Assembly: GCF_002210095.1 (NCBI RefSeq)
Contig: NZ_AQQR01000006.1
Span: 1-64,000 of the forward strand
Direction of reading: 5' to 3'
Source of the DNA: Marinibacterium profundimaris
Lineage (GTDB): Bacteria > Pseudomonadota > Alphaproteobacteria > Rhodobacterales > Rhodobacteraceae
DNA: 64,000 nt
Below, piece by piece: positions 17,943 to 59,286 of this stretch (position 1 is the first letter of the stretch; each line of letters begins with the position of its first letter). The notes under the pieces were generated by a model. That model saw only the letters and a list, made by a program, of their open reading frames with translations, did not search any database and was not told the DNA's origin. The position numbers and the translations under genes are program-made.

Positions 17943-18005
17943 GGGGGCGCTGCCCCCGTCCTCCGTCGGAGGACTCCCCCGGAGGTATTTGGGCCAAGAA
18001 GAAGC
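17943..18005 (+). repeat. Structured intergenic repeat, full copy A
   Basis: The copy contains hairpin 1 GGGGGC-gct-GCCCCC (17943-17957) and hairpin 2 GTCCTCC-gtc-GGAGGAC (17958-17974). Then come the short palindrome CTCC-CCC-GGAG and the tail GGTATTTGGGCCAAGAAGAAG. It lies just after efp in the convergent gap with the ABC transmembrane gene. Other full copies are at 18111, 23195 (reverse), 29454 and 40219. Confidence 0.85.
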
Positions 18006-18110
18006 AGGGGCGGGGTGCCCCGAGGCCGGCGGTCCGACTGGGGGCGCCGGTTTCTTTTTGCGCGGTTCGTGGTTAACGGGCGACGTGGTTGTGGGGGTCG
18101 ACCGGGGATC

Positions 18111-18175
18111 GGGGGCGCTGCCCCCCTCCGCCCGGGGGGCGGAGTCCCCCGGAGGTATTTGGGCCAAGAAGAAGC
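18111..18175 (+). repeat. Structured intergenic repeat, full copy B
   Basis: Same layout as the copy 170 bp upstream. Hairpin 1 is identical. Hairpin 2 is CTCCGCCC-ggg-GGGCGGAG (18126-18144), a different sequence that keeps pairing. The tail GGAGGTATTTGGGCCAAGAAGAAGC is identical. The two copies are direct repeats. No gene lies in the 311-bp gap (17890-18200) holding them. Confidence 0.85.
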
Positions 18176-18200
18176 ATGGACCTGGGTGGGGCGGGGCGCG

Positions 18201-19148
18201 TCAGGTGCCGGTGGGCGCGTCGCGGTGCATGGGCGTGCCGGGGCGGGGCATGGCGACGTCCTTGAGAAGTTCGTATTTAACGCGGGTCGCGCTGATCTGG
18301 CGGTAGAAGGCGATCAGGAAGCTCGTCGGGCCCTGCAGCCGCGACAGGCCCATCACCGCGGCCACCACCGTACCCACGTCCGTCTCGCCCTTCAGCACGT
18401 ACCAGCCGCCCAGCAACAGCACGCCGACGGTGCCCGCGCCGGTGATCGCGCTGATCGCGAACTTGGTCGAGAGCTTCCATATGAACATCGACCGGCGCGT
18501 CGCGTAGATCCCGTCGAAGGCGCCCAGAACATCCGCGTTCTCGTGGTCCAGGTCGTCCTTCACGATGTCCGAGGTCGACCGCCGCAGGATCCGCACGCGT
18601 TCGGCCACGTGGCGGTTCACCACCCGCTGGGTCGACAGCACCAGCACCACCTGCGGCGCCATGATGGCCAGCGCGATCACGCCCAGGATCGGTTCGGCCG
18701 TGGCGATGTAGCCCACCACCGAGATCATCGTCCCGATCTGCATCACCGGCTCGGAATAGGCGCTGCCGGCGAACTTGCCCAGCTCCTCCGCCTCGGCCGA
18801 GATCATCGTCGACACCGTCCCGGTGCTCAGCTCGCTGTCGCGCCCGGTCTCCAGCGCCGTGCCGTAGATCCGCTGGCGCAGCAACCGCGTCGTGTCCTCG
18901 CCCAGGAGGTTGGCGCCGAAGCCCGCCGCCCATTTCAGGGCGAGGCTCAGCAGGATCACCCCCATCATCTCGGCGCAGAGCCGCAGCAGCCCGGGAAAGT
19001 GGATTTCGGAGGCGGTGAGCTCGTTGATGATGTCCTTCTGGTAGCTCAGCGGCACCGCCGCCAGCGCCGCGATCGCCGCGGACAGGAGGATGAGAATCAC
19101 CTGGCGCCCCGCGCTGACCCGCCAGATCGCGGCATACATTTCCAGCAT
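18201..19148 (-). CDS. Stand-alone ABC-exporter transmembrane domain protein (no ATPase domain)
   Basis: A 315-residue protein that resembles the type I exporter transmembrane domain (six helices). Predicted helices lie at about residues 18-38, 55-75, 135-175 and 250-285. It has coupling-helix-like features such as G-R-D-S-E-L-S-T-G-T-V-S-T-M-I-S-A-E-A-E-E-L. It stops where the nucleotide-binding domain would begin, and no Walker motif or ATPase gene is adjacent. ATG 19146-19148 is used. It may pair with an ATPase encoded elsewhere, or be a domain that lost its partner; there is no frame remnant of an ATPase downstream, where the structured repeats begin. It is divergent from the caspase gene. 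Confidence 0.75.
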   Translation of the reverse strand: MLEMYAAIWRVSAGRQVILILLSAAIAALAAVPLSYQKDIINELTASEIHFPGLLRLCAEMMGVILLSLALKWAAGFGANLLGEDTTRLLRQRIYGTALETGRDSELSTGTVSTMISAEAEELGKFAGSAYSEPVMQIGTMISVVGYIATAEPILGVIALAIMAPQVVLVLSTQRVVNRHVAERVRILRRSTSDIVKDDLDHENADVLGAFDGIYATRRSMFIWKLSTKFAISAITGAGTVGVLLLGGWYVLKGETDVGTVVAAVMGLSRLQGPTSFLIAFYRQISATRVKYELLKDVAMPRPGTPMHRDAPTGT

Positions 19149-19314
19149 TCTGCGGTCCCCGGTCTCTTGAATCCGGCCTCTTTTTGCCCCCGGTCCCCCG
19201 CGGGCGCAAGATGACGGGGGCGAAGGGGGCAGATCGCGTCGCCAAACGGTGACAGGCACGGATCCGCTCGTGTAGCCTTACTCCGGGTCCAGTGTTCTTT
19301 GTACCGGGTTGGAC

Positions 19315-20613
19315 ATGACTGGGATACGAGTGGTTCTTTTTTGCCTGTTCTGCGCCCTGGCCGTGCTGACCGCGGGACCGGGGCAGGCCAAGCGCCTGGC
19401 ACTGGTGATCGGTGTCGATGCCTACCAGAACGTCACCCCCCTGCAGAAGGCGGCCAACGACGCCCGCGCCGTGGGCCACGCGCTGCAGCGGTCGGGGTTC
19501 GAGGTTCTCAGCCGCATCGACCCCTCGCGGACCGAGTTCCTGCTGGCGCTCAACGACCTTTACAACCGCATCGATCCGGGGGACGAGGTCGTCTTCTTCT
19601 TTGCCGGCCACGGCGTGCAGCTGGACGGGCGCAACCGCCTGCTGCCCGCCAACGTGCCCCAGGTCGCCCCGGGGAACGAGCTGCTGCTGGAAGAAGACAG
19701 CTTTGCCGCCGACCAGATCATGGAGCGCATCCAGCAGCGCGGCGCGCGGCTGACCTTCATGATCCTGGACGCCTGCCGCAACAATCCCTTCCCGACCCAG
19801 GGCCAGCGCAGCGTCGGCGGCGCGCGGGGTCTTGCGCGGATGGAACCGGCCGAGGGCGCCTTCATCCTCTATTCCGCCGGCGCGGGGCAGACCGCGCTGG
19901 ACCGGCTCTCGAATGCCGACAGCGATCCCAACTCGGTCTTCACCCGGTCGCTGCTGCCGCTGATGGAACAGCCCGGCCTGGCGCTGCCGACGCTCGCCCG
20001 CAAGGTCCGCGACGATGTGCGCGAACTGGCGCGCTCGGTGAACCACAACCAGTTCCCGGCCTATTACGATCAGCTCTCGGGCGATTTCTACATCCGTCCC
20101 GGAACGGCGGATCCCGACCGGGGGGCCTTCAGCGTGACGGCCAGCCCGGCGCCGCCGCCCGCCGATCCGCCCGCGCCGGGCGATCCCTGCGCCGGGGCCG
20201 AGGGCATGTGGACCATCATCCAGACCAGCGAGAGCCAGACCGTTTTCGAGGAATTCCGAAAGCGCTACGGCGAATGCGGCATCTACTCGGCCCTGGCCCT
20301 GGAGCAGCTGAACCGGCTCAAGGGCGGCATCGCCAGCAGCCCCGCCGACAGCACGGCGCAGACCCGGCCCGTCGCCGCCGCCCCGCCACAGCCTGTCCGC
20401 CCGGCGGCCCCGGTGCCATCGGGGGACGCCTGTTTCGACCTGTGGTACCAGCGGAACGCGGTTTTCCAGGCCTACGGCTATTGTTTCCAGACCGAAAAGG
20501 CGAAACGCTATTTCGACACCAGCGCCTGCAGCACCCGCTCGCCCCGCCTGTCGGCGGCGGACCTGAGCCGGGTCGAAGCCATCCGCGCCAGGGAACGGGC
20601 CGCGGGATGCTGA
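19315..20613 (+). CDS. Secreted caspase-family peptidase with a C-terminal YARHG domain
   Basis: A 432-residue protein. A signal peptide spans about residues 1-25 (ending G-Q-A-K), so it should be exported. Next is a caspase/C14 p20-like domain (about 27-255) with the catalytic dyad His in F-F-A-G-H-G (about residue 99) and Cys in D-A-C-R-N-N-P-F (about 154). A Pro/Ala-rich linker leads to a C-terminal YARHG-like module (about 370-432), with C-F-D-L-W-Y-Q-R-N and Y-G-Y-C-F. Bacterial caspase-like proteins with the R-N-N-P-F motif are common in alphaproteobacteria; their substrates are unknown. ATG 19315 is preferred over a TTG two codons earlier. Its 3' end overlaps the next peptidase gene by 7 bp. 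Confidence 0.85.
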   Translation: MTGIRVVLFCLFCALAVLTAGPGQAKRLALVIGVDAYQNVTPLQKAANDARAVGHALQRSGFEVLSRIDPSRTEFLLALNDLYNRIDPGDEVVFFFAGHGVQLDGRNRLLPANVPQVAPGNELLLEEDSFAADQIMERIQQRGARLTFMILDACRNNPFPTQGQRSVGGARGLARMEPAEGAFILYSAGAGQTALDRLSNADSDPNSVFTRSLLPLMEQPGLALPTLARKVRDDVRELARSVNHNQFPAYYDQLSGDFYIRPGTADPDRGAFSVTASPAPPPADPPAPGDPCAGAEGMWTIIQTSESQTVFEEFRKRYGECGIYSALALEQLNRLKGGIASSPADSTAQTRPVAAAPPQPVRPAAPVPSGDACFDLWYQRNAVFQAYGYCFQTEKAKRYFDTSACSTRSPRLSAADLSRVEAIRARERAAGC

Positions 20614-21443
20614 ATGCCATCGTCCGCTGCGCCCTGCTGCTGGGCCTCGCGGCGCCGGTCGCGGCCTCGGATTGCACGGCGCGCGATTTCCTCGGCCTGA
20701 CGCTGCCCGACAGCCCGGGGCGCCCCGCCATCGCCATCGCGCTCGAGACCGCCTATCCCGGCCTTTATGTCGACGAGGGGCAGGGCAATGTCCACATGCC
20801 CGACGGCTCCACCGTGCTGCCTCTGGGCGGCGTGACCGGGCGCGACCCGGCCCAGCGGCTCGACAGTCCCACGATCGCGGAACAGTTCTTCTATACCTAC
20901 CCGCTGGCCTTCGACCTTGGACCGCGGCAGGTGCCCTGGACCGATCCGGGCCGCCTGCGCAACCCGGCCTTCTTCGAGGCGCTGTACTACAGCACGCAGG
21001 CCGAGGCCGCGGCCGACATGCGCCGCGTCACCTACGCCCCCACCGGCACGCGCTTCGTGCTGGGCGACCGCACCTGCGCGGCGACGCAGCTGGACGCCGC
21101 GCTGCGCGACATCGCGGGGCAGGGGATCGATTACAGCCGCTTCTTCCGCAACGTCGGCGGCAGCTTCAACTGGCGCCGCATCGCGGGTACCGACCGGCTC
21201 AGCGCGCACAGCTTCGGCATCGCGCTGGACCTGAACGCGGACCTGGGCGGCTACTGGCGCTGGTCCGGCGCCGCGCCGGGGGCGGCGCAGCGCTACGACA
21301 ACCAGATCCCCGAAGGCATCGTCGCGGCGCTGGAACGCTATGGGTTCGTCTGGGGCGGCAAGTGGCACCATTTCGACGGCATGCATTTCGAATACCGCCC
21401 CGAGCTGATCCTGCACGCCCGGCTGTCCGGGGACCGCGCCTGA
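20607..21443 (+). CDS. Periplasmic M15-like (VanY/LAS-type) peptidase
   Basis: A 278-residue protein with a signal peptide (about 1-20, V-A-A-S-D). The C-terminal part has the LAS metallopeptidase zinc motifs. S-A-H-S-F-G-I-A-L-D-L-N supplies the first His and Asp, and K-W-H-H-F-D-G-M-H-F-E-Y supplies the Trp-His and last His. Such enzymes cut D-Ala-D-Ala or L-Ala-D-Glu bonds in peptidoglycan. The N-terminal 130 residues are not recognised and look like an added domain (F-F-Y-T-Y-P-L motif). The gene overlaps the caspase-family gene by 7 bp, so the two exported peptidases are co-translated. Confidence 0.82.
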   Translation: MLNAIVRCALLLGLAAPVAASDCTARDFLGLTLPDSPGRPAIAIALETAYPGLYVDEGQGNVHMPDGSTVLPLGGVTGRDPAQRLDSPTIAEQFFYTYPLAFDLGPRQVPWTDPGRLRNPAFFEALYYSTQAEAAADMRRVTYAPTGTRFVLGDRTCAATQLDAALRDIAGQGIDYSRFFRNVGGSFNWRRIAGTDRLSAHSFGIALDLNADLGGYWRWSGAAPGAAQRYDNQIPEGIVAALERYGFVWGGKWHHFDGMHFEYRPELILHARLSGDRA

Positions 21444-21458
21444 GCGGCCCCCGCAAGG

Positions 21459-22223
21459 TCACGCAACCGGATCCAGGCTGACCCGTGCGTCGCCGGCCTG
21501 CATCTCCGGCGCCACGCGGTCAAAGCGCAGGTAGGCGATGCCCTTGTCCCCGGCGGTGCTCAGCAGCGTGCCGGCGGCCTTCTCTCCGGCCAGGATCTCG
21601 GTGCCCGGCGCGGCCTGGCCGGCGACGGCGACCCGGGCCAGGCCCTTGCGCAGCTCGGTCTTGTGCTTCATCCGCGCGGTAACCTCCTGGCCCACGTAAC
21701 ACCCCTTGCGGAAATCCACGCCGTTGAGCCGTTCGAACCCGGCCTCCAGGATGAAGGTGTCGGGCGTCAGCTCGATACCCGTTTCGGGGATGCAATGGGC
21801 GACGCGCAGCGCGGTCCAGTCGGTGCCATCGTCGCTCTCGGGCGCCTCGGAGTAGGCCCGCCACCCCAGCGCCGCGTGGCGCGGGTCGCGGAACGCGCCC
21901 TCGGGCGCCGGCCCGGTGCCGCGCTGCACCTGCAACCCGCTGTCGGAAATCGCGACATCGGCGCGCAGCTTGTACATGCTCAGCCGTTTGGCCAGCGCGT
22001 CGGCCAGGGCCTCGTCCACGTCCAGCAGGATCGCGCCGCCCTGCCGGGCCAGGAAGAAATCGGCGATGTACTTGCCCTGCGGCGTCAGCAGCGCGGCATA
22101 GACAAGCCCGCCGCCGTCCCCGGTCTGATCCGGGTCGAGGCGGCTGATGTCATTGGTGACGAGGCCCTGCAGAAACTCCTCGGCCTCGGAGCCGGTGATT
22201 TGGAATACGCGTCGTGAGGGCAT
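21459..22223 (-). CDS. ygfZ: YgfZ/GcvT-like folate-binding protein
   Basis: A 254-residue member of the YgfZ (Iba57-like) family, which uses tetrahydrofolate and helps build or repair Fe-S clusters in certain enzymes. The hallmark K-G-C-Y-V-G-Q-E motif is present (about residues 185-192) with its essential Cys. The N-terminus F-L-Q-G-L-V-T-N-D is also typical. ATG 22221-22223 is supported by AAGGA about 6-7 bp before it. It converges on the M15-like peptidase gene and is divergent from the glycosyltransferase gene. Confidence 0.92.
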   Translation of the reverse strand: MPSRRVFQITGSEAEEFLQGLVTNDISRLDPDQTGDGGGLVYAALLTPQGKYIADFFLARQGGAILLDVDEALADALAKRLSMYKLRADVAISDSGLQVQRGTGPAPEGAFRDPRHAALGWRAYSEAPESDDGTDWTALRVAHCIPETGIELTPDTFILEAGFERLNGVDFRKGCYVGQEVTARMKHKTELRKGLARVAVAGQAAPGTEILAGEKAAGTLLSTAGDKGIAYLRFDRVAPEMQAGDARVSLDPVA

Positions 22224-22319
22224 CTTGGGATCCTTGTTCCACGGCCGCCCGGGTCGGCGGCGATCTTGTGTCTGGCTGCCGTTGATATAGGTATGCGCAG
22301 GCCGCACCCTAACCGAGAG

Positions 22320-23015
22320 ATGCCATTGACCGCCACGCTCAGCATCGTCATTCCGACGCTTGACGCGGAAAAACACCTGCCGAGGTGTCTCGACAGCCTG
22401 ATCGAAGGGCTGACGGCTGGGCTGATCCGCGACCTGGTGATCACCGACGGGGGCTCGTCGGATACCACCCGCGACATGGCCGATGCCGCCGGGGCGACCC
22501 TGGTGACCGGCCCGGCCTCGCGCGGGGGGCAGCTGCGCCGGGGCGTGGCGGCGGCGCGCGGCGACTGGGTGTTGGTGCTGCATGCGGACACGGTGCTGTC
22601 CCACGGCTGGTCCGACATCGTGATCGACCATATCCGGGAACAGGGCGGGCCCGCCCATTTCCGCCTGGCCTTCCGCGAGAGCGGCCTGATGCCGGCGCTG
22701 GTGTCGGGCTGGGCCAACCTGCGCGCGGGGCTCTTCGCCTTGCCCTACGGCGACCAGGGCCTGCTGCTGCGCCGCGCCGACTACGACCGCGCCGGCGGCT
22801 ACCCCGACCAGCCGCTGATGGAGGACGTGGCCCTGGCCCGCGCCCTGCGCCGCTCCGGCTGTGCCATCACCCGCCTTAACGCCCGCGCAACCACCTGCGC
22901 CGAACGCTACCTGCGCGACGGCTGGATCCGCCGCGGCGCGCGCAACCTCTGGACGATGTTCCGCTACATGATCGGCACCGATCCCGAACGCCTGGCCGCC
23001 TCTTACCGGCGCTGA
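22320..23015 (+). CDS. Family 2 glycosyltransferase (TIGR04283-type)
   Basis: A 231-residue GT-A glycosyltransferase. It starts with the family core T-L-S-I-V-I-P-T-L-D-A-E. It has D-G-G-S-S-D-T-T (nucleotide-sugar binding) at about residues 44-51 and L-H-A-D-T-V as the metal-binding DXD-like motif. The later Y-G-D-Q-G-L and E-D-V motifs are catalytic-side features of the TIGR04283 group. No membrane helices are seen. The sugar and acceptor are unknown. ATG 22320 is chosen because the core begins six residues later; an ATG at 22293 is possible. Confidence 0.85.
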   Translation: MPLTATLSIVIPTLDAEKHLPRCLDSLIEGLTAGLIRDLVITDGGSSDTTRDMADAAGATLVTGPASRGGQLRRGVAAARGDWVLVLHADTVLSHGWSDIVIDHIREQGGPAHFRLAFRESGLMPALVSGWANLRAGLFALPYGDQGLLLRRADYDRAGGYPDQPLMEDVALARALRRSGCAITRLNARATTCAERYLRDGWIRRGARNLWTMFRYMIGTDPERLAASYRR

Positions 23016-23055
23016 GCACTCAGGCCACCGGCGCGTTCGTGGCGGTCGCTGTGTT

Positions 23056-23257
23056 GGAGTATTTTTACAAAGATGAAGCAGGGGACCTGTGCGCGATCCA
23101 TCCGTCCGTGCCTCTGGTCGGGTGGCGGCCCCTATTTGTCGGCTTGTACAAAACGGACAAAGCGCGGCCCGATCCTTGTACAAAACGGCCAGTTCTTCAC
23201 CTTTGGCCAAATACCTCCGGGGGAGTCGCGGCCTGCCGCGACGGGGGCAGCGCCCCC
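23056..23257. repeat. Composite repeat: half copy (+), paired TGTACA sites, full copy D (-)
   Basis: A half copy GGAGTATTTTTACAAAGATG... lies at 23056-23084. The full copy in reverse orientation occupies 23195-23257, with hairpin 2 arms GTCGCGG/CCGCGAC. Between them CTTGTACAAAACGG occurs twice (23143-23156 and 23175-23188), start to start 32 bp. This fills the convergent gap between the glycosyltransferase and ABC exporter genes. The interior matches the element at 40281-40400 in opposite orientation. Confidence 0.8.
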
Positions 23258-23305
23258 ATCCAACGGTCACATCCTGCGCCGTCACCGGCCCCGGGCGCGC
23301 GCGCC

Positions 23306-25078
23306 TCAGGTCCCCTCGTCGCGGAACTGCAGCCGGTAGAGATCGGCATAAATCCCGCCGCGTGCCAGCAGCTCCTCGTGGGTGCCCTGATCGACCACGC
23401 GGCCGTGGTCCATCACCACGATCCGGTCCGCCTCGCGCACGGTCGAGAGCCGGTGCGCGATCACCAGCGTCGTGCGCCCGCCCGAAAGCTGGTCCAGCGC
23501 CTGCTGCACCACCTTCTCCGATTGCGCGTCCAGCGCGCTGGTGGCCTCGTCCAGCAGCAGAACCGGCGCCTCGCGCAGCAGCGCCCGGGCGATCGCCACC
23601 CGCTGCCGCTGCCCGCCCGACAGGGCCGAACCGCGCGGGCCCACCATCGTGTCGAGCCCGTCGGCCAGCTGGGGCAGGAAATCGCTCACATGGGCGGCCT
23701 TCAGCACATCCTGCAGGTCGGCGTCCGAAATGTCGGTGCGGCCCAGAAGGATGTTCTCGCGCAGGGTCTCGTCGAACAGCACCGCCTCCTGGCTGACCAC
23801 CGAGAAGAGGCCGCGCAGCCCGTCGAGCGACATGTCCCGCGCCTCGATCCCGCCGATCTTCACGGTGCCCTCGGCCGGGTCCACCAGCCGGGTCAGGACA
23901 TTGAAAATGGTGGATTTCCCCGCGCCCGAGGCACCGACAAGCGCAGTGGTTTTCCCGGCCTCGGCATGCAGCGTGAGATCGCGCAGCACCGTCGTGTCGC
24001 CGTAGGAGAGCGTGACATGATCCAGCGCGATGCCGGGCAGACCCTCGGGCGGGTCCACCGGGTGCTCGGGCGAGGTCAGCGTGACCGGCGCATCCAGCAA
24101 CGCCTTGATCCGCTCCATCGCCGCCGCGGCCACCTGCCAGAGCCCGCTGATCGAGCCCAGCCGCCGGATCGGGTCGAAGGCCAGCCCCATGGCGGTGAAG
24201 AAGCTCATGAATTCGCCCACGGATTTCTCGCCCGAGATGATCTCGGACCCGCCGAAGACCAGCACGGCAAGAAAGCCCAGACCTGCGATCACGTCGACCA
24301 TGCCCGGGATCAGGGCGGACCCGAAGGAGGCGCGGACCTCGGCGCCGACATAGGCCTGCATCTTCTCGTCGAACCGGTTGGCCTGATAGCGTTCGAGCCG
24401 GTTCAGCTTTACGGGCACGATGCCGTGGAACACCTCGTCCAGCCGGGTCGCCAGCGCCGCGCCCAGGTCGCGGGCGGTCCGCGCCTGGCCGCGCACGAAG
24501 CGCTGGATCGTCGCCACCGGCAATGCCATCAGCGGCACGCCGATCAGGGTCACCGCCGTCCAGCGCCAGTCGATGCTGATCGCCACGCCCATCAGCGCAA
24601 AAAGCGAGACCGCATCGCGCCCGGTGCCGGTGACCACCGCGCGCCAGACGTCGTTGATGGAATTCACGTCGGTCTGGATCCGCTGGATCAGGAAACCGGG
24701 CGGATGGGCCAGGTGAAAGGCGCCGTCCTGCCGCATCATGTGCCTGAGGATGTCCAGCCGCAGGGCCGCGCCGGTCAGCTGCGAGATCCGGGTGAGGATG
24801 ACGCTCTTGCTGACCCCGCAGAAGGCGCGCAGCGCGAAGATCCCGGCAATGGTGACGCCCACGCTCCAGATCGCGCTGCGTTCGCCGCCGACGAAGATCT
24901 TGTCGAACATCGGCTGCATCATGTAGCTGAGCGCCCCCAGCATCGACCCCTCGATCGTCATCAGGACCATCGCCACCGCCAGCCAGCCCATGTGCGGGCG
25001 CAGGTAGCCCCGCCAGAGCCAGCGAAAGAGCTCGGGCGAGGGGGTGGTGTTGGGTTCGGGCATATCGGTCTTGCTCAT
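23306..25078 (-). CDS. MsbA-like ABC transporter, fused permease and ATPase
   Basis: A 590-residue ABC half-exporter. The transmembrane domain occupies about residues 25-330 and the ATPase about 345-585. Walker A is G-A-S-G-A-G-K-S-T, the signature L-S-G-G-Q-R-Q-R, Walker B V-L-L-L-D-E-A-T-S-A-L-D and the switch His I-A-H-R-L. It should act as a homodimer exporting lipid or drug-like compounds; MsbA-type lipid A flipping is possible but not shown by sequence alone. ATG 25078 overlaps the preceding phosphatase stop (ATGA), so the two are one operon. Confidence 0.92.
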   Translation of the reverse strand: MSKTDMPEPNTTPSPELFRWLWRGYLRPHMGWLAVAMVLMTIEGSMLGALSYMMQPMFDKIFVGGERSAIWSVGVTIAGIFALRAFCGVSKSVILTRISQLTGAALRLDILRHMMRQDGAFHLAHPPGFLIQRIQTDVNSINDVWRAVVTGTGRDAVSLFALMGVAISIDWRWTAVTLIGVPLMALPVATIQRFVRGQARTARDLGAALATRLDEVFHGIVPVKLNRLERYQANRFDEKMQAYVGAEVRASFGSALIPGMVDVIAGLGFLAVLVFGGSEIISGEKSVGEFMSFFTAMGLAFDPIRRLGSISGLWQVAAAAMERIKALLDAPVTLTSPEHPVDPPEGLPGIALDHVTLSYGDTTVLRDLTLHAEAGKTTALVGASGAGKSTIFNVLTRLVDPAEGTVKIGGIEARDMSLDGLRGLFSVVSQEAVLFDETLRENILLGRTDISDADLQDVLKAAHVSDFLPQLADGLDTMVGPRGSALSGGQRQRVAIARALLREAPVLLLDEATSALDAQSEKVVQQALDQLSGGRTTLVIAHRLSTVREADRIVVMDHGRVVDQGTHEELLARGGIYADLYRLQFRDEGT

Positions 25079-25755
25079 TCCGGGGGCTCTTTGGCGCGGA
25101 AGGCGCGGATCATCGCCTCGTTGTCGTATTCGGTGGCGATCCAGTCCTCGAAGCCGATCGGGTCGCGCGCATTGCGCGCTTCGTAGACATCGAGCGTGTA
25201 ATCGAGGATGCCCACCTTGCCATTGCGGAAATGCATGAAGCGCGGCGCCAGCATCTTGCGCGCCTCCGAGACCGGTTTGCCCTCGACCTCGATCAGGTAG
25301 ATGGCCGAGGCGAAGCCCGAGCGGTCGGCGCCGGATTTGCAATGCATCACGAAAGGCTTCTCCAGCGTTTTCATCAGGTGGATCACGTGAAGGATATCCT
25401 CGCGCACCGCGGCGCCGCGCGCCAGCAATTGCGCATCGACAAGCTCAAGGCCCAGATCCTCGCAGGCTTCCTTTTCCAGCAGGTAATGCGCCGTCTTCGT
25501 CACCCCGCGCAGGTTCAGCACGGTGCGGATGCCCATGGCCTTCATCTTCTCAAGCCGCCCGCGCGAGGGCTGGTTCGACCGGTATACCCCCGGGGCGACC
25601 TTGTAGAAGTTCGTCCAGACACGGCGGATGATCTCGTGGTCGAACCACAGGGTGTAGATCATCGCCCGGCGCCGGTGCGCGGGCGTCGACAGGTCGGTGT
25701 TGAAATACGCCCGCAGCCGCTTTTCCCAGTCTTTCAGCTGCCGTCCGAGGCGCAT
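25075..25755 (-). CDS. Tyrosine/dual-specificity protein phosphatase family protein
   Basis: A 226-residue cytoplasmic phosphatase with the CX5R loop H-C-K-S-G-A-D-R-S at residues 138-146 (catalytic Cys139, Arg145). The upstream V-Y-R-S-N-Q-P stretch and V-L-N-L-R-G are typical of the DSP-like bacterial family. The start at 25755 has AAGGGAAG just before the ATG. It is the first gene of a two-gene unit with the ABC exporter. Substrates could be protein phosphotyrosine, phosphoinositides or phospholipids; coupling to a lipid-type exporter hints at envelope lipid metabolism, which is inference. Confidence 0.85.
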   Translation of the reverse strand: MRLGRQLKDWEKRLRAYFNTDLSTPAHRRRAMIYTLWFDHEIIRRVWTNFYKVAPGVYRSNQPSRGRLEKMKAMGIRTVLNLRGVTKTAHYLLEKEACEDLGLELVDAQLLARGAAVREDILHVIHLMKTLEKPFVMHCKSGADRSGFASAIYLIEVEGKPVSEARKMLAPRFMHFRNGKVGILDYTLDVYEARNARDPIGFEDWIATEYDNEAMIRAFRAKEPPE

Positions 25756-25895
25756 GTATCTTCCCTTGCAGATCCGGTCGCATTGCTTTTGCGCAGACGG
25801 TCCCTCTTGACAAGCCATGCGTCGCCATGGCGAGCCGTGGATTGACGCCGCCGGGAAGCCCGCTAACGTGCCCGGCGCTATTACAGGAACGTTCC

Positions 25896-29453: not shown

Positions 29454-29650
29454 GGGGGCGCTGCCCCCGTCGCCTTCGGCGACTCCCCCGGAGGTATTCT
29501 CTCCAAGAAGAAGACCTGGGGTTTAAAAATGTCCCACGCGTGGGACAGAGAGCCCGGCGTTTTGAATCAAGAGGTTGGACGGGTGGATTAACGAAGCGTT
29601 CAGGATTTTTGGCGCCACGCCCCTGCTTCTTCTTGGGCGAAATACTCCAG
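29454..29650. repeat. Composite repeat: full copy E (+), 18-bp palindrome, half copy (-)
   Basis: Full copy E (29454-29513) has hairpin 2 GTCGCC-ttc-GGCGAC. The perfect palindrome TGTCCCACGCGTGGGACA follows at 29530-29547. TTTGAATCAAGAGGTTG is at 29561-29577, and an inverted half copy CTTCTTCTTGGGCGAAATACTCC ends the element (29625-29650). The same order occurs at 59123-59286. It fills the convergent gap between the crotonase and DUF1992 genes. Confidence 0.8.
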
Positions 29651-33372: not shown

Positions 33373-33396
33373 GGAGTATTTGTCTCCAAGAAGAAG
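33373..33396 (+). repeat. Half copy of the structured repeat
   Basis: GGAGTATTTGTCTCCAAGAAGAAG is the tail half of the repeat family without hairpins 1 and 2. It lies in the 247-bp divergent gap between valS and the DUF3253 gene, an unusual place for this family. Note that its end falls close to an alternative start of the DUF3253 gene. Confidence 0.7.
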
Positions 33397-40218: not shown

Positions 40219-40424
40219 GGGGGCGCTGCCCCCGTCCTCCTGCGGAGGCCTCCCCCGGAGGTACTTGGGCAAAAGTGAAGATATGGACGTTTTGTACATT
40301 GTCCGAAGCGGGGTATGTCCGTTTTGTACATCTGCGAAACGCCGCTCCACCGCCGGATCCGGGCGCGCCGCCCGGGCGTCTGGCACAGGTCCCCTGCTTC
40401 ATCTTTGCCCAAATACCTCAATCC
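40219..40424. repeat. Composite repeat: full copy F (+), paired TGTACA sites, half copy (-)
   Basis: Full copy F spans 40219-40280 with hairpin 2 GTCCTCC-tgc-GGAGGCC. CGTTTTGTACA occurs at 40288-40298 and 40320-40330, 32 bp start to start. A GC-rich stretch then leads to an inverted half copy at 40396-40424. The interior, from the paired sites to GCACAGGTCCCCTGCTTCAT, matches the element at 23070-23190 in reverse. The 397-bp gap (40210-40606) has no gene. Confidence 0.8.
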
Positions 40425-47831: not shown

Positions 47832-47839
47832 AACCGCCG

Positions 47840-52416: not shown

Positions 52417-52427
52417 CTTGGTCTCCT

Positions 52428-53063
52428 TCAGGCCCGGTCCGAGGGGTTTCCGGGCATCAGATCGTAGGGATGTTTCCAGCCGGGCTGTTCGCTGAGGCGG
52501 GTGAGCCAGGCGTCGATATTGGGCCAGTCGGCGCGGTCGAAGCCGAAGGGTTCGGGGTAATAGAGATACCCGCAGCAGGTCAGATCGGCATTGGTGAGGC
52601 TGTCGCCCACGATCCACTCGCGCCCCATCATGTGCTTGTCGAGCACGTCATAGGCGGCCTTGAGCCGGCCCTGGAACATGGCGATCGCCTCTTTGGGCTG
52701 CTTGTCCTCGGGCAGGAAGTTCATCAGGAACCGCGTCATCCCGGCGACGGAGGACAGCTTGTGATTGTCCCAGAGCACCCAGCGCAGGACCTCGTATTTC
52801 TCCATGTCCGTGCCGCCCAGCTTGCCGGTCTTGTCGGCGATGTATTGCTGGATCACGCCCGATTGCGTGAGCTTCACGTCGCCGTCGATCAGCACCGGCG
52901 CCTCGCCCATCTCGTTGACATTGGCGCGGTATTCCGGGGACCGAGTCTCGCCGTTGAAGAAATCCACCTTCACCGGTTCCCAGTCGAGCCCGGAGAACTG
53001 CAGCGCCAGGGCCGCCTTGTAGGAATGCCCGGATTCTCCGAAGCAGTAGAGCTTGATGGTCAT
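52428..53063 (-). CDS. Glutathione S-transferase family protein
   Basis: A 211-residue GST. The N-terminal thioredoxin-like domain starts K-L-Y-C-F-G-E-S-G-H-S-Y-K, with a Ser or Cys available as the GSH-activating residue. The G-sheet V-L-I-D-G-D and L-T-Q-S-G-V-I segment binds glutathione. The helical C-terminal domain follows (about 85-205). It lies 11 bp before the thiolase gene, so it is probably in the same transcript. The substrate is unknown. Confidence 0.88.
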   Translation of the reverse strand: MTIKLYCFGESGHSYKAALALQFSGLDWEPVKVDFFNGETRSPEYRANVNEMGEAPVLIDGDVKLTQSGVIQQYIADKTGKLGGTDMEKYEVLRWVLWDNHKLSSVAGMTRFLMNFLPEDKQPKEAIAMFQGRLKAAYDVLDKHMMGREWIVGDSLTNADLTCCGYLYYPEPFGFDRADWPNIDAWLTRLSEQPGWKHPYDLMPGNPSDRA

Positions 53064-53108
53064 GTGCCTTATCTCCCTGGGTGGCGCCTGTGGCGGGTGT
53101 CGTGTTGC

Positions 53109-53322
53109 GGTATTTTTACAAAGATGAAGCCAGGACCGGGTTACCCAATATTAACCTTGTTCGCCAACGATAGGCTTGCGGTACAGGCTGCGGAGCCGAT
53201 GACCGTCAAAGGTGAAGCCCCGCCGCCCTGCCTGCGTTCCGTCTGACGGTCGGGCCGCGCGGCGGGGTGGACCTCAGAGCGCAACCGGATCTCTTCATCT
53301 TTGCATAAATACCCGCCGCCGG
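53109..53322. repeat. Intergenic region bracketed by inverted half copies of the structured repeat
   Basis: A half copy GGTATTTTTACAAAGATGAAGC lies at 53109-53130 and an inverted, more degenerate one at 53293-53322 (CTTCATCTTTGCATAAATACCC). The 160-bp interior shares neither the TGTACA pair nor the 18-bp palindrome, so it is a third cargo type or a decayed one. No gene is called in the 379-bp gap (53064-53442). Confidence 0.6.
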
Positions 53323-53442
53323 AGGCTCCCGAAGCCGCCGCAAGCACTGCCGCCGGGCCGATGCGCCCGACGTCGCCACGCTCTTCCCGACGCGCAGTCT
53401 TCAAGTAGGACGTAACCATCGCTCCTCCCCGATCCAGCTATC

Positions 53443-53655
53443 TCACCTCTTCCTTGCGTCCAGTTCCGAGTTGAACAGCCGCAGCCGGTGCGACAGCGCC
53501 TCCGTGTCGGTCACGCTGTCGAAATGCTCGAAGAGAAAGCTCAGCGCCTCGCCCTCGTCCAGCCCTGCCTCTGCGGCGAAGCGTTTCAGGCGGCGGTACC
53601 CGTCCTCCGTCATGGCGACGGGAAAGCGGCGGGTCAGGCGAAAGCGTTTGGGCAT
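53443..53655 (-). CDS. Small ribbon-helix-helix-like protein
   Basis: A 70-residue basic protein: M-P-K-R-F-R-L-T-R-R-F-P-V-A-M-T-E-D-G-Y-R-R-L-K-R-F-A-A reads as one strand and a helix, then A-G-L-D-E-G-E-A-L-S-F-L-F-E-H-F as a second helix. This strand-helix-helix layout suits a ribbon-helix-helix DNA-binding protein. GAGGAG precedes ATG 53655. It lies 57 bp after the acyl-CoA dehydrogenase stop on the same strand. No known family member is recognised, so regulatory function is inferred. Confidence 0.6.
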   Translation of the reverse strand: MPKRFRLTRRFPVAMTEDGYRRLKRFAAEAGLDEGEALSFLFEHFDSVTDTEALSHRLRLFNSELDARKR

Positions 53656-53712
53656 CTTGGCTCCTCGTCGGGCTGGGGTAGGGTGGGGTTGCACCCCACC
53701 GCCACGCAGACC

Positions 53713-55494
53713 CTAGAAGTTCGCCGCTTCAAGCGCCATCACCGGCTCGGCACCGCTCTGGATCCGGGCCAGGTGCATCGCCGTCGCCGGCAGCTGTCGC
53801 GCCATGTAGTAGCGGCCGGTGGCCAGCTTGGTCTCGTGGAACGCTGCGTCAGCGGCGCCCTCGGCCAGCGCCTCCTGCGCGGCCTTGCCCATCATCGCCC
53901 ACATCAGGCCCAGGCAGACATGGCCGAACATGTGCATGAAGTCATAGGACCCGGCCAGCGCGTTGTTGGGATTTTTCACGCCGTTCTGCATGAAGTACAT
54001 CCCCGCCGCCTGCAGGTCCTTCGAGGCGGCCTTCAGCGGTTCGACGAAGTCCTTGTCGAACCCCGCGTCGGCCCCGGCATTGTCCTTGCAGAAGCTCTTC
54101 ACCAGCTCGAAGAAGGCCATCACGTGCTTGCCGCCCTGTTGCGCCAGCTTGCGGCCCACCAGATCCAGCGCCTGCACGCCGTTGGCGCCTTCGTAGATCA
54201 TGGCGATCCTGGCATCGCGGGTGAATTGCGACATGCCCCATTCCTCGATGTAGCCATGCCCGCCATAGACCTGCTGCGCCGCGACGGTGCAGTCATAGCC
54301 CTTGTCGGTCATGAACCCCTTGATGACCGGCGTCAGCAGCGAGATCATCCCGTCCGCGTCCGCATCGCTCATCCGGTGCGCCTGGTCGATCATCACCGCG
54401 CCCCAGAGCGCGAAGGCGCGGGCGCCTTCGGTAAAGCTTTTCTGGTCCATCAGCGCGCGGCGGATGTCGGGATGCACGATCAGCGGGTCGGCCGGGCCGT
54501 CGGGGTTCTTGGCCCCGGTCACGTCGCGGCCCTGCAGCCGGTCCTTCGCGTAGGCCACGGCGTTCTGGTAGGCGGCATCGGCCTGGGCGAGCCCCTGCAT
54601 GCCGACACCCAGACGCGCCTCGTTCATCATGGTGAACATGGCGCGCATGCCCTTGTGCTCCTCGCCCAGCAGGTAGCCGGTGGCGCCATCGTAGTTCATG
54701 ACGCAGGTCGAGTTGCCGTGGATGCCCATCTTCTCCTCGATCTTGCCGCAGCTCACGCCGTTGCGCGCGCCAAGGCTGCCGTCCTCGTTCACGAGGAATT
54801 TCGGCACGATGAAGAGAGAGACGCCTTTGATGCCCTCGGGCCCGCCGGGGATCTTGGCCAGCACGAGGTGAATGATGTTCTCCGCCATGTCGTGTTCACC
54901 GGCGGAGATGAAGATCTTCTGCCCCGAGATCCTATAGGTCCCGTCACCCTGCGGCTCGGCCTTCGTGCGCATCAGGCCAAGGTCCGTGCCGCAATGGGGT
55001 TCGGTCAGGTTCATGGTGCCCGTCCAGTCGCAGGACACCATGTTGGGCAGGTAGGTGGCCTTCTGATCCTCGGTCCCGTGGGTGAGGATCGCCGAGGCCG
55101 CTCCGTGGGTCAGCCCCTGGTACATGGCGAAGGCCTGGTTGGCGGCCGAGAAATACTCGCCCACCGCGGTCGACATGACGTAGGGCATGTTCTGCCCTCC
55201 GAACTCCTCGGGGAAATCGATACCGGTCCAGCCGCCGGCCTTCATCTCTTCGAAGGCCTCCTTGAAGCCGGCCGGGGTGCGGACCACGCCATTTTCCAGC
55301 ACGCAGCCCTCGGTATCGCCGATCACGTTCAGCGGGGCCAGGACCTCGCCGCTCAGCTTGCCCGCCTCTTCGAGGATGGCGCCGGTGAAACTGGCCTCCA
55401 TTTCCTCGTACCCGGGGATCCCGGTTTCGGTCACCTTCAGCACATCGTGCAGGATGAACTGCGTGTCCTTGGTGGGTGCGGTGTAGCTGGGCAT
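53713..55494 (-). CDS. Acyl-CoA dehydrogenase with C-terminal extension (DmdC/FadE-like, about 590 residues)
   Basis: A 593-residue FAD-dependent acyl-CoA dehydrogenase of the large type with an extra C-terminal domain. It starts with [20 protein letters not shown] binds FAD, and the active-site Glu is in the M-I-Y-E-G-A-N-G segment. [10 protein letters not shown] is the conserved C-terminal core motif. In roseobacters this type acts on medium/long acyl-CoA or, as DmdC, on methylmercaptopropionyl-CoA; sequence alone does not decide. The RBS GGAGGACC precedes ATG 55494. It is preceded by a MerR gene 36 bp upstream, probably its regulator. Confidence 0.88.
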
Positions 55495-55529
55495 GGAAGG
55501 TCCTCCCGTTCCGTCAGTCTGGGCTTGTC

Positions 55530-55934
55530 TTACTGTGCGGCCGCCTTGCTGGACGACTGGATCGAGGCAAGCATCTTCTCGCCCCATTTCAGCTGTTCGC
55601 GCAGGTCGGCGATGTTGCGGTCCATCTCGTCCCGCTCCGCCTCGAGCGCGCGCAGACGTTCGCTGGCCAGCTCGTAGGTGCGTTCCAGCTGGGTCTGCTG
55701 CTGGTCGCCCACGTGGTAGAGGTCGAGCAGCTGGCGAATTTCCTCGAGGCTGAAGCCGAAGCGCTTGCCGCGCAGGATCAGCTTGAGCCGGGCCCGGTCG
55801 CGCTTGGTGAACAGGCGCTTCTGGCCAAGGCGGAGGGGAAAGAGCAGTTCCTTGGATTCGTAGAAGCGCAGCGTCCGAGGGGTCACCTCGAATGCATCGC
55901 ACATTTCCCGAATCGTCATCGTGTCAGTGGTCAT
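55530..55934 (-). CDS. MerR family regulator upstream of the acyl-CoA dehydrogenase
   Basis: A 134-residue MerR-type protein. The winged helix-turn-helix covers residues 7-75: [20 protein letters not shown], then the wing [12 protein letters not shown]. The long coiled coil lies at about 82-125. It lacks metal-binding Cys, so it belongs to the effector-independent or acyl-CoA-type MerRs that sit next to beta-oxidation genes. The next gene downstream is the acyl-CoA dehydrogenase (36 bp), in the same direction. An inverted repeat 103-133 bp upstream is a candidate operator. Confidence 0.9.
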
Positions 55935-56036
55935 CTATCTTCCCTGGCGGATGAGGCAAGGCCCCGGTCCGCTCCCGTTGAGGGTGCTTAGAGCAGGCGT
56001 CCGAGCTTTACGCAGCCTGGACGTCGCGTCAGCACC

Positions 56037-56067
56037 AAGTTGACGTTGGATCATGTCGCGTCAACTT
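56037..56067. promoter_or_regulatory. Inverted repeat AAGTTGACG-N13-CGTCAACTT, candidate MerR operator
   Basis: Perfect 9-bp arms (56037-56045 and 56059-56067) separated by 13 bp, upstream of the first MerR gene and downstream of the second. MerR proteins bind such dyads between -35 and -10 boxes. The full 356-bp gap (55935-56290) has no gene. No matching -35/-10 pair was found inside the dyad. Confidence 0.55.
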
Positions 56068-56290
56068 ACCCGTCGACGCGACTGGGCTCACATAGGGATC
56101 CCCTGCCGCGGCGTGAGGTCAGGATTCCCATACGTTGTGCGCTCGTGACCCAACGTCAGAACGCATGCGCGTCATATTTTGTTCAATTTCGGACAGGCCC
56201 AAATGGTGCGATCGGCAATATAACGCCGCGTCACGGGATCCCGGGGCCGGATCCGCCCCCGCTGTGCGCGTCCGCGCCGGCGGGAACCTG

Positions 56291-56659
56291 TCAGCTCAGC
56301 GAATCTCTTGTCTCGTCGCGGAGGCGCTCAAGCTCTTCCATCGCCTCGTCCAGCTGGGCGCGCTGTTCGGCCAGGGCCCGCAGCTGGCGGTCGGCGGATT
56401 CGACGAAGGCACGCATCTGCACCTCGGTGCCTTCGCGTTCGTAGATCGTCAGCCACTGGCGGATGTCTTCCAGCTGAAAGCCCCAGCGGCGCCCGCGCAT
56501 GATGAGTTTCATGCGCGCAAGCTCCCTGGGGCCGTAGTACCGCGAACGCCCTTCGCGTTCGGGCTGCAACAGCTCGATATACTCGTAGTAGCGCAGCGTC
56601 CGGGGCGTCACGTCGAAAGCCGCGCACATTTCCTTGAAAGTCAGGCGTTTGTCCGTCAT
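56291..56659 (-). CDS. Second MerR family regulator
   Basis: A 122-residue MerR-type protein, paralogous to the one at 55530 (both T-x-x-E-M-C-x-A-F-x-V-T-P-R-T-L-R). HTH at about residues 8-75 and a coiled coil at about 83-120 (R-Q-L-R-A-L-A-E-Q-R-A-Q-L-D-E-A). No Cys-rich sensor is present. Its start at 56659 is divergent from the thioesterase pair at 56781, with a 121-bp gap. It may control those genes or itself; this is inference. Confidence 0.88.
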   Translation of the reverse strand: MTDKRLTFKEMCAAFDVTPRTLRYYEYIELLQPEREGRSRYYGPRELARMKLIMRGRRWGFQLEDIRQWLTIYEREGTEVQMRAFVESADRQLRALAEQRAQLDEAMEELERLRDETRDSLS

Positions 56660-56780
56660 GCCGACCCTACTCCCGTTTGCGCGAAATCTATGCGCAACGG
56701 GTGCGGGACGCAACACTCGGGCTTGCCCCGGGTCCTTGCGGCGGTCCACATAGCATCCGTCAACATCCGAAGAGGGGCCC

Positions 56781-57200
56781 ATGGTCGACAGAGCGACGCT
56801 TGCACGCCAGTTCATCGAGGCGATTCCCCATGCCCGGGCCCTGGGCCTGGAGCTGGTGGAGATCGCCGAGGGGCGGGCCGTGATCTCGATGCCGTATGAC
56901 GAGAAGCTGATCGGCGATCCGGAGACGCGGGTGATCCATGGCGGCGCGGTGTCGGCCCTTCTGGACACCTGCTGCGGGGCGGCGGTGATGAGCCATCCCA
57001 CGCAGCCGGACGCGACGGCGACGATCGACCTGCGCATCGACTACATGCGCGCGGCGACGCCGGGGCAGACGCTTGTGGCCACGGCCGAATGCTACCACGT
57101 GACCCGCTCGGTCGCCTTCGTGCGCGCCACGGCGGTGGACGGTCGGACGGACGTGCCGGTGGCCAGCGCCGCGGCCTCCTTCACCGCGGAGAGACGCTGA
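56781..57200 (+). CDS. PaaI family thioesterase (first of a pair)
   Basis: A 139-residue hotdog-fold thioesterase with the PaaI motif H-G-G-A-V-S-A-L-L-D-T at about residues 53-63, where Asp is the catalytic acid. It would hydrolyse acyl-CoA (often aromatic or medium-chain) to free acid and CoA. The stop shares bases with the next start (TGATG), so it is co-translated with a second thioesterase. The neighbouring MerR genes suggest control by acyl-CoA supply. Confidence 0.9.
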   Translation: MVDRATLARQFIEAIPHARALGLELVEIAEGRAVISMPYDEKLIGDPETRVIHGGAVSALLDTCCGAAVMSHPTQPDATATIDLRIDYMRAATPGQTLVATAECYHVTRSVAFVRATAVDGRTDVPVASAAASFTAERR

Positions 57201-57772
57201 TGCCTCGGTCGCGTCCCGAACCGATGCAGGTGGTCAAGCAACGCCGCGACGGCGCGCTGAAGGCGCTGGTCGAGGCTGTTCCCTACGTCCGCTTCCTGGG
57301 GATCGTCTTCGACCGCCGTGGTGACGAGCTGACCGGCGTGATGACCTATTCCGAGGACCTGATCGGCAATCCCTTCCTGCCGGCGCTCCATGGCGGCGCG
57401 ACCTCGGCCTTCCTCGAGGTGACGGCGATCGTCTCGCTCAGCTGGGCGGTGCTGTGGGACGACCTGGAAAGCGGCGCGCTTGATATCGCCCGGCTCGAGG
57501 CCGGGGACCTGCCGCGCCTGCCCAAGACCATCGGGCTGACCACCGATTACCTGCGTTCGGGCCTGCCGCGCGACGCCTATGCCCGGGCGCGGATCGTGCG
57601 GCGCGGGCGGCGCTATGCCTCGGTGCATGTGGTGGGCTGGCAGGACAATCACGACCGGCCCTTCGCCCAGGCGACGGGGCATTTCCTGATGCCTCCGCGC
57701 GACGGCGACGGGGCGCCGGACACCCCGCGCGAGCCGATGGCGCCCGGTGGACCGGGCCCGGCCGATGGCTGA
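57200..57772 (+). CDS. PaaI family thioesterase (second of a pair, longer and divergent)
   Basis: A 190-residue hotdog-fold protein. The motif H-G-G-A-T-S-A-F-L-E-V has Glu instead of the usual Asp, and it carries an insert rich in Leu/Trp/Asp (S-W-A-V-L-W-D-D-L-E-S-G) before the second half. The C-terminus is Pro/Gly-rich. It is therefore a diverged partner, perhaps forming a heteromer with the first thioesterase. The start overlaps it by 1 bp, and its end overlaps the MATE gene by 8 bp. Confidence 0.82.
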   Translation: MPRSRPEPMQVVKQRRDGALKALVEAVPYVRFLGIVFDRRGDELTGVMTYSEDLIGNPFLPALHGGATSAFLEVTAIVSLSWAVLWDDLESGALDIARLEAGDLPRLPKTIGLTTDYLRSGLPRDAYARARIVRRGRRYASVHVVGWQDNHDRPFAQATGHFLMPPRDGDGAPDTPREPMAPGGPGPADG

Positions 57773-59090
57773 CACGGCCGCGCCCGGCTCGCCGATCACC
57801 CACCGGCGGGTGCTGCACATCGCCATTCCCATCGTGCTGTCGAACGCCACCGTGCCGATCCTGGGCGCGGTGGATACCGGCGTGGTGGGCCAGATGGGCG
57901 CGGCGGCCCCGATCGGGGCGGTCGGCATTGGCGCGGTGATCCTCTCGGCGGTCTACTGGATCTTCGGCTTTCTGCGGATGGGCACGACCGGCATGGTCGC
58001 CCAGGCCAAGGGCGCGGGCGACGTGGCCGAGACCGGCGCGCTGCTGACCCGCGGCATGTTGGTCGGGCTGATCGGCGGGGTCGTGCTGGTGGCGCTGCAG
58101 GCGCTGATCTTCTGGGGCGCGTTCCAGCTGTCACCGGCGTCGGACGAGGTCGAGGGGCTGGCCCGGCAGTACCTGTCGATCCGGATCTGGGGCGCGCCGG
58201 CGGCGATCGGGATCTATGCCGTCACCGGCTGGCTGATCGGGATGGAACGCACCCGGGGCGTGCTGATGCTGCAGCTCTGGATGAACGGGCTGAACATCGG
58301 GCTGGACCTGTGGTTCGTTCTGGGCCTCGGCTGGGGTGTCGGCGGGGTGGCCACGGCGACGCTTTTCGCCGAATGGACCGGGCTGGCGCTGGGCCTCTGG
58401 CTCTGCCGCGCGGCGTTCACGGGGCATCAGTGGCGCGACTGGCCGCGCGTTTTCGACCCGGCGCGGCTGAAGCGGATGCTGCAGGTGAATGGCGACATCA
58501 TGATCCGCTCGGTGCTGCTGACCGGCTCCTTCATGACCTTCCTGTTCCTCGCCGCAGACCTGGGCGACGAGACGCTGGCCGCCAACCAGGTGCTGATCCA
58601 GTTCCTGGAGATCACCGCCTTTGCGCTCGACGGCTTCGCCTTCTCGGCCGAGGCGCTGGTCGGCGTGGCCGTGGGCGCGCGCAACCGGGCGGACCTGCGC
58701 CGCGCGGCGATCATCGCCTCGCAATGGGGCCTGGGTGGGGCGGTGCTGCTGGGGGCGGTTTACTGGCTTTTCGGCGGCATGATCATCGACCTGATGACCA
58801 CGGCGGAGGGCGTGCGGGCCGAGGCGCGCAGCTACCTGCCCTGGCTGGCCATAGCCCCCCTGCTGAGCGTGGCGTCGTGGATGTACGACGGGGTCTTCAT
58901 CGGTGCGACATGGACCCGGCAGATGCGCGGCGCGATGTTCGAGGCGGTGGCGATCTACCTGGTGGCGCTGGCGATCTTCCTGCCGTGGCTGGGCAATCAC
59001 GGGCTGTGGCTGTCGCTGATGGTGCTGAATGTCGCCCGCGCGGCGACGCTGGCCCGGCGCTATCCGAGGCTGGAGGCGACGGTCACCTGA
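57765..59090 (+). CDS. MATE family efflux transporter (DinF-like)
   Basis: A 441-residue MATE transporter with about twelve helices. It resembles the DinF branch: I-P-I-V-L-S-N-A-T-V-P-I-L-G-A-V-D-T-G near the start and a later W-M-Y-D-G-V-F-I-G. It would exchange an organic substrate for H+ or Na+. The start lies inside the end of the thioesterase gene, so all three genes form one operon; this links efflux to acyl-CoA clearance, but that is only positional. Confidence 0.88.
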   Translation: MADTAAPGSPITHRRVLHIAIPIVLSNATVPILGAVDTGVVGQMGAAAPIGAVGIGAVILSAVYWIFGFLRMGTTGMVAQAKGAGDVAETGALLTRGMLVGLIGGVVLVALQALIFWGAFQLSPASDEVEGLARQYLSIRIWGAPAAIGIYAVTGWLIGMERTRGVLMLQLWMNGLNIGLDLWFVLGLGWGVGGVATATLFAEWTGLALGLWLCRAAFTGHQWRDWPRVFDPARLKRMLQVNGDIMIRSVLLTGSFMTFLFLAADLGDETLAANQVLIQFLEITAFALDGFAFSAEALVGVAVGARNRADLRRAAIIASQWGLGGAVLLGAVYWLFGGMIIDLMTTAEGVRAEARSYLPWLAIAPLLSVASWMYDGVFIGATWTRQMRGAMFEAVAIYLVALAIFLPWLGNHGLWLSLMVLNVARAATLARRYPRLEATVT

Positions 59091-59122
59091 CCCGTGGGCG
59101 CGCCTGTTGCGGGTGTTGTGTT

Positions 59123-59286
59123 GGTGTATTTGGCCAAAGGTGAACGAGGCGCGGGGCGCGATGTCCCACGCGTGGGACACCTGGCCGGTCGTTTGAAATC
59201 AAGGGGTTGCAAGGCTGGGTTTACGATCTGTTCACGATCTGCAGAGCCACGCCCATGTCTTCTTCTTGGCAAAAATACCTCAATCC
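59123..59286. repeat. Composite repeat: half copy (+), 18-bp palindrome, half copy (-)
   Basis: The half copy at 59123-59145 (GGTGTATTTGGCCAAAGGTG) is followed by the perfect palindrome TGTCCCACGCGTGGGACA (59162-59179), TTTGAAATCAAGGGGTTG (59192-59209) and an inverted half copy (59258-59286). The order and spacing match the element at 29454-29650. It fills the convergent gap between the MATE and ArsC-like genes. Confidence 0.8.

Follow-up and report, generated by a model that had tools for sequence, protein, structure and literature searches.

A short sequence module at gene ends of Marinibacterium profundimaris and other Rhodobacterales, with facing pairs that may act as bidirectional terminators

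In the 6.15-Mb genome of Marinibacterium profundimaris, a contig of 281,572 bases (NZ_AQQR01000006.1) carries within its opening 64 kb, hereafter termed the window, a family of intergenic repeats. What is constant in these repeats is the core GTATTT-N3/4-C(C/A)AAG-NN-GAAG (class 1), with optional hairpins upstream. The core is present about 200 times in the host genome. It is placed at gene ends with a bias for the sense strand in tandem gaps, is associated with secondary structure and largely keeps its position between species. We propose that it represents a modular signal for the 3' ends of Rhodobacterales genes and that cores facing each other in pairs would act as bidirectional intrinsic terminators, a reading drawn from sequence comparison to which we assign a probability of about one half.

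A pattern search allowing up to one mismatch returned 204 core matches in the host genome compared with 3 for the control, and a second pattern yielded 195 exact matches compared with none. Exact cores occur at least once in 57 of 196 genomes of the order, distributed over 36 of 88 genera, and at least ten times in 20 of these genomes, spanning 16 genera. As most of the 196 genomes lack an exact core, the distribution is patchy or variants of another form exist. A protein-coding origin is ruled out because the free positions are not third positions in the sole suggestive frame (TTN NNC) and because the spacing is either 3 or 4. With Rfam 15 at the curated threshold, the window is matched by a tRNA alone, and all matches from permissive Rfam searches, run on one window locus and five relatives, fell below the gathering scores; no known RNA family was identified for the repeat in these searches. 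The motifs were not found described in the titles and abstract openings of the open-licence PubMed Central (PMC) papers listed, a fraction of those that matched motif strings, so that absence from print is not established.

The placement of the core relative to genes was analyzed in a 2.06-Mb sample of the host genome, to which all counts of 121 cores and 20 facing pairs refer. Genes were called with a simple fifth-order Markov finder, which set the start of valS too far upstream, and cores had to contain GTAYTT; the window copy at 29494 (GTATTC) is left out and its pair is absent from the 20 that were scored. The 121 cores comprise 57 in convergent gaps, 37 in tandem gaps in sense and 16 in antisense orientation, nine in divergent gaps, one within a gene and one at an edge, with a median of 53 nt from the stop codon of the same-strand gene to the core. 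Convergent gaps make up 18.6% of the intergenic bases and yet harbor 57 of the 119 classified intergenic cores (p 3e-13), divergent gaps are depleted (9 of 119, p 1e-6), and 37 of 81 regions are convergent when counting is done per region (p 1e-8). In convergent gaps the strand of the core equals that of the upstream gene by geometry, and a strand test is valid in tandem gaps only. There, cores without another core within 250 bp are in sense orientation in 20 cases vs. antisense in three (p 5e-4), a bias that speaks in favor of the core acting in RNA or while genes are transcribed.

Gene-end placement had been claimed in an earlier note on the window, and it holds beyond that stretch, both in the sample and on annotated plasmids of other genera. 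Neither of the two outcomes that the note named as refuting, a random distribution relative to gene ends and a lack of covariation, was encountered. Twelve plasmid records matched, of which 11 were examined and 10 were annotated. Eight of the ten copies reside between a same-strand gene and a convergent gene (two of the eight being orthologues of another match), with the upstream gene 4-277 nt away in seven cases and 1,340 nt away in one, for which the orthologue has a gene annotated in the intervening stretch. The remaining two copies are antisense between tandem parA- and parB-type genes. In Marinibacterium anthonyi and Antarctobacter heliothermus, a full copy is located between plasmid-borne parA- and parB-type genes.

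Of the eight half copies in the window, which lack the double hairpin, seven are paired with a facing core at a spacing of 133-137 bp (184 bp at 53.2k), an arrangement overlooked earlier, and five of the six larger loci are thus inverted pairs. Two of these enclose an 18-bp palindrome with a fixed tail (PAL, TGTCCCACGCGTGGGACA). In the sample, 20 core pairs face each other within 200 bp, 11 of them in convergent and nine in tandem gaps, the latter being expected if a pair is a single structural unit. All 20 are more stably folded than their shuffles on average (mean z -4.6) and 19 form one long hairpin with at least eight arm-arm pairs, although some of this folding follows automatically from the arms being the same motif in inverted orientation. 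On either strand, a facing pair reads purine tract, hairpin, pyrimidine tract. In the reading that we favor, the purine tract (AAGNNGAAG) would serve as the A-tract and the reverse complement of the partner core as the U-rich tract, such that the pairs would work as intrinsic, largely bidirectional terminators. In isolated cores, the purine tract would come before whichever local hairpin follows. Intrinsic terminators of the alphaproteobacterium Zymomonas mobilis are over-represented between convergent genes and carry A-rich upstream tracts (PMC7566282). The idea of two-way termination put forward in the earlier note stands as far as the facing arrangement is compatible with it; termination itself is what we infer.

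Two congeners contain a second class of core, GTATTT-N3-AAGAGAAAGAAGC (class 2). Its U-tracts (CUUCUUUCUCUU) are better than those of class 1, which read UAUUU(UU) or are interrupted (CUUCUUCUU). Eight hand-picked class 2 pairs in the congeners are 39-42 bp apart and follow the scheme GTATTT-N3-AAGAGAAAGAAGC-loop-GCTTCTTTCTCTT-N3-AAATAC. Judged by their arrangement, these tight pairs look like textbook bidirectional intrinsic terminators. Facing pairs are present in other genera too. Of 20 regions that had been hand-picked for pairs, 17 contain one.

A double hairpin upstream of the core had been taken as the defining part of the repeat, which is not borne out, as 73 of the 121 cores have neither a CCCCGGAG-type part nor a CTCCGGCGGGAG hairpin. 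Hand-written patterns assign 33 cores to the CCCCGGAG type, 15 to the CTCCGGCGGGAG hairpin, 19 to a GGATTGA type and 54 to none of these, at least three of the last group being misfiled variants of the hairpin types. The 45 nt upstream of the core fold with mean z values against shuffles of -1.54, -1.76, -0.48 and -0.23 for these four classes, respectively, so that structure is in excess in the two hairpin classes and barely so in the other two. The G+C-rich upstream hairpins stop at GTATTT, with 33 of 106 hairpin-plus-T matches around 94 same-strand cores ending exactly there. A stable G+C-rich hairpin as expected of a terminator is found in 19 of the 20 facing pairs and at those 48 cores, out of 121, that have hairpins in front. 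The upstream hairpins ending in UAUUU may provide a second terminator-like structure or may protect the 3' end of the mRNA.

For the full copies, the earlier observation that stem 2 varies on both sides and yet remains paired was confirmed in an alignment of 18 copies (17 distinct) out of 41 found, chosen to span the variants. In this alignment, 22 cells are altered on both sides compared with 8.0 in shuffles, none of 500 shuffles being equal. Double changes affect five of the seven pairs, and the signal is gone when the partner is shifted by 1-3 columns. Three of five covariation measures exceed all 500 shuffles. The other two are weaker: the number of pairs with double changes is 5 vs. 3.4 (reached by 22 of 500 shuffles) and further pair types are not in excess (7 vs. 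7.0, reached by 370 of 500). Stem 1 (GGGGGC-gct-GCCCCC) is invariant across the aligned copies and therefore neither supports nor opposes structure. Stem 2 is a secondary structure that looks selected. Quasi-palindrome correction in DNA can likewise produce perfect stems without selection at the RNA level.

Comparison of the orthologous gaps of seven window loci in two congeners revealed a same-strand core at six of the seven loci in every genome with synteny; at the efp locus, the strand of the core differs between genomes. At 23059, 33376 and 59126 the window has class 1 (CMAAGNNGAAG) and both congeners have class 2, and at 33376 and 59126 the rest of the gap appears little alike by eye despite the same-strand core. 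Position and strand are therefore mostly kept while the sequence class changes. Class 2 was found neither in the host genome nor in 195 other genomes in a search that excluded the two congeners; both congeners mix the classes among the matches listed, where a pattern that fits either class gave 99+109 and 106+113 hits. A bolder reading is that the element is a dedicated gene-end signal of the Rhodobacteraceae read by a trans-acting factor, be it an RNA polymerase-associated or an RNA-binding protein, and that a change of this reader caused one clade of the genus to switch many of its sites from class 1 to class 2. The element would then be to prokaryotes what a signal for 3'-end processing is elsewhere. 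We consider this quite improbable.

Several observations weigh against the facing pairs being terminators and the core a general 3'-end signal. No partner in strict facing position exists for 77 of the 121 cores, or for 73 by a looser rule, and isolated cores without upstream hairpins have no stable hairpin, such that this feature holds for part of the family. The association between a missing upstream hairpin and the presence of a partner falls short of significance (p 0.06). Most pair interiors exceed 100 nt, which is long for a terminator loop, the class 1 U-tracts (CUUCUUCUUGG, CUUCAUCUUUG) are interrupted, arm pairing outside the cores is not clearly above expectation in the 37 facing pairs tested, and the window pair 59126/59260 has no arm-arm pairs in the minimum-energy fold. 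The right core of this pair and its PAL are lacking in both congeners. If the element replaced conventional terminators, these should be rarer next to it, and this substitution test is not supportive: hairpins followed by TTTT occur in 8 of 47 convergent ends with vs. 58 of 365 without a core and in 12 of 32 tandem ends with vs. 68 of 647 without, some of the matches in the core group being the element's own hairpin. Finally, among the isolated cores that are in sense orientation in tandem gaps, 7 of 20 end within 41 nt of the next predicted start, an odd location for a terminator.

The occurrence of cores between closely spaced same-strand genes would fit a role in RNA processing or stability. 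GUAUUU, the AU-rich run of the core, could be a single-stranded stretch cleaved by RNase E within an otherwise G+C-rich transcriptome, facing pairs would form long stems for RNase III, and upstream hairpins would shield the new 3' end, also between the cistrons of an operon. AU-rich sites are preferred by RNase E in Rhodobacter sphaeroides; however, only about 2% of the RNase E sites in this organism lie in 3' untranslated regions (PMC6238624). The conserved CMAAGNNGAAG part is also left unexplained. We regard a processing and stability element as clearly unlikely.

The interiors of facing pairs fall into a few recurring types, which comprise PAL with its tail at a partner distance of 113-115, GTTTGCAGATGTCGGATCC at about 107, TTGTACAAAACG-like repeats at 118 (two window loci) and a small RNA (sRNA)-like cassette. 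All five sample copies of GTTTGCAGATGTCGGATCC lie within 200 nt of a core, and three of eight copies of the exact TTGTACAAAACG pattern lie near one. The sRNA-like cassette, at 53178-53267 (+) in the window, consists of GCGGTACAGGCTGCGGAGCCGATGACCG followed by a strong hairpin and has no Rfam match. In both congeners, facing cores flank it as well, and in three other genera (G052, G106, G147) they flank a part of it, GCGGTACAGG...GATGRCCG. Part of the cassette is also present upstream of valS in both congeners. Paired GTTTTGTACA repeats occur in two facing pairs of the window, at 23145-23186 and at about 40285-40335, with one copy per locus in congener G196.

Such modularity is reminiscent of BIME- or MITE-like mosaic repeats (bacterial interspersed mosaic elements; miniature inverted-repeat transposable elements). 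In this reading, core and cassettes would spread by copying, gather at gene ends via selection against insertion elsewhere and have no function of their own. The family shares a hallmark of repetitive extragenic palindromes (REP) and BIMEs, being a mosaic of units that occur as direct and inverted pairs at gene ends. Partner distances fall into a few classes (21-24, 33, 49, 87, 105-118, 126 and 164-165 nt) that are tied to particular interiors, direct pairs are spaced at about 76 and 133 bp and facing pairs mostly at 126-137 bp, and 63 nt of the first window copy reach as much as 98% identity with copies scattered through one congener. Spread by copying would also agree with the exclusive presence of class 1 in the host genome and with the lack of the right core and PAL at 59.2k in both congeners. 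On the other hand, isolated cores are biased to the sense strand, and orthologous gene ends keep same-strand cores even where, as in the 33376 and 59126 gaps, little else is alike. Furthermore, a search for a Y1_Tnp protein (REP-associated tyrosine transposase, RAYT) was negative in all three genomes of the genus, while a control detected it in 5 of 14 named genomes; for this genus, we therefore reject REP elements driven by RAYT. Mosaic repeats without a function of their own are in our opinion a somewhat unlikely explanation.

PAL deserves separate consideration. It is present in 76 copies in the host genome (76, 72 and 44 in the three genomes of the genus) and was exact in 20 of 20 copies of the first sample, where sites with 1-3 mismatches were not encountered. 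As PAL is its own reverse complement, its strand label is arbitrary. A conserved tail, asymmetric and about 60 bp long, follows at offset 16 in 47 and at offset 15 in two of 49 distinct copies, 48 of which stem from the host genome and one from an M. anthonyi plasmid. One search detected no PAL in 195 other genomes of the order, a few other Rhodobacterales with PAL are among the matches listed in another scan, and PAL was not found in the viral contigs searched. A PAL-like tail also occurs in a Roseicyclus metagenome-assembled genome and, more weakly, in Pararhodobacter. The tail might be read as the CtrA motif, TTAA-N7-TTAA; many copies have TTTAC in place of TTAAC. The exactness of PAL, its frequent location at convergent ends (22 of 38 copies) and the inverted repeat formed by facing cores could point at a DNA-level site, where a protein bound to the core or PAL at gene ends acts as a roadblock or in supercoiling or chromosome organization. 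Against this stand the strand bias of isolated cores, the absence of PAL in one search from 195 other genomes of the order, many of which have the core (a few other Rhodobacterales notwithstanding), and its variation at 29.5k, where one congener has one changed base and the other lacks it. A DNA-level site appears very improbable.

Within the window, the five full copies and eight half copies of the earlier note were all located, with gene context checked by Pfam. A 23-nt tail pattern with up to three mismatches matches six times, and each of 100 dinucleotide shuffles gave no match. Gene calls and Pfam agree with the previous assignment of four of the six larger loci (17.9k, 23.1k, 29.5k and 59.2k) to convergent gaps; those at 40.2k and 53.2k are in tandem gaps. 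At 17.9k, a full copy with stem 1, stem 2 and core (17943-18004, +) starts 53 nt past the end of efp (17326-17889), and a second full copy is found on the same strand (18111-18174, +), the neighboring gene on the minus strand ending at 18201. The core at 23059-23077 (+), 43 nt past the end of a glycosyltransferase gene, faces the full copy at 23195-23257 (-), which is located downstream of an ABC transporter gene (23306-25078, -). Past an enoyl-CoA hydratase gene, the full copy at 29454-29513 (+) is the left arm of a pair enclosing PAL (29530-29547) with its tail reaching about 29610; the right arm is the core at 29627-29645 (-), downstream of a gene for a DJC28-domain protein. An isolated core at 33376-33395 (+) is antisense to the valS upstream region, and a core of the other class is found at the same place and strand in both congeners. 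In the tandem gap past priA, the full copy at 40219-40280 (+) faces a core at 40398-40416 (-). The cassette described above is flanked by cores at 53110-53128 (+) and 53294-53312 (-), 184 bp apart, likewise in a tandem gap. At 59.2k, a core past a MATE transporter gene (59126-59144, +) is followed by PAL (59162-59179) with its tail reaching about 59240 and by a facing core past an ArsC-family gene (59260-59278, -); in both congeners, this gap is shorter than 100 nt and contains a single core. Outside the family, a further intergenic motif, GTAGGGTGGGGTT, was noted in the host genome sample, two of its 12-mers being intergenic in 12 of 12 copies.

If the core indeed marks 3' ends, many gene ends of a major group of marine bacteria would be predictable from sequence, in genomes in which canonical terminators are scarce by the simple criterion of a hairpin followed by TTTT (present at 58 of 365 core-less ends in convergent gaps and at 68 of 647 in tandem gaps). 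The class switch at fixed sites between close species would then constitute a natural experiment on the change of a genome-wide 3'-end signal, and about 200 unlabelled intergenic repeats of the host genome would receive an annotation class.

Among known systems, bidirectional intrinsic terminators, reportedly treated by Ju et al. in 2019, are the first to compare. Those of E. coli and Z. mobilis share the A-rich tract, the G+C-rich hairpin, the U-rich tract and the concentration in convergent gaps (PMC7566282). In contrast, the tracts described here are a sequence-specific module at about 200 sites with GTATTT in front, U-tracts are interrupted and interiors are often long. REP/BIME elements are similar in that they are short, reside at gene ends and in convergent gaps, and form direct and inverted pairs (PMC1525189). 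Our family differs from them, as no RAYT transposase turned up in three genomes of the genus and single cores are strand-biased. Correia elements are MITE-like repeats in which, as here, inverted terminal repeats enclose interiors that vary in sequence but have fixed lengths. The same architecture is evident for pneumococcal BOX and RUP elements (PMC3049150). Unlike both, the repeats of Marinibacterium are largely kept at orthologous gene ends across species. The family would thus resemble known terminators in action or known mosaic repeats in look, and what is new is the family-wide sequence module.

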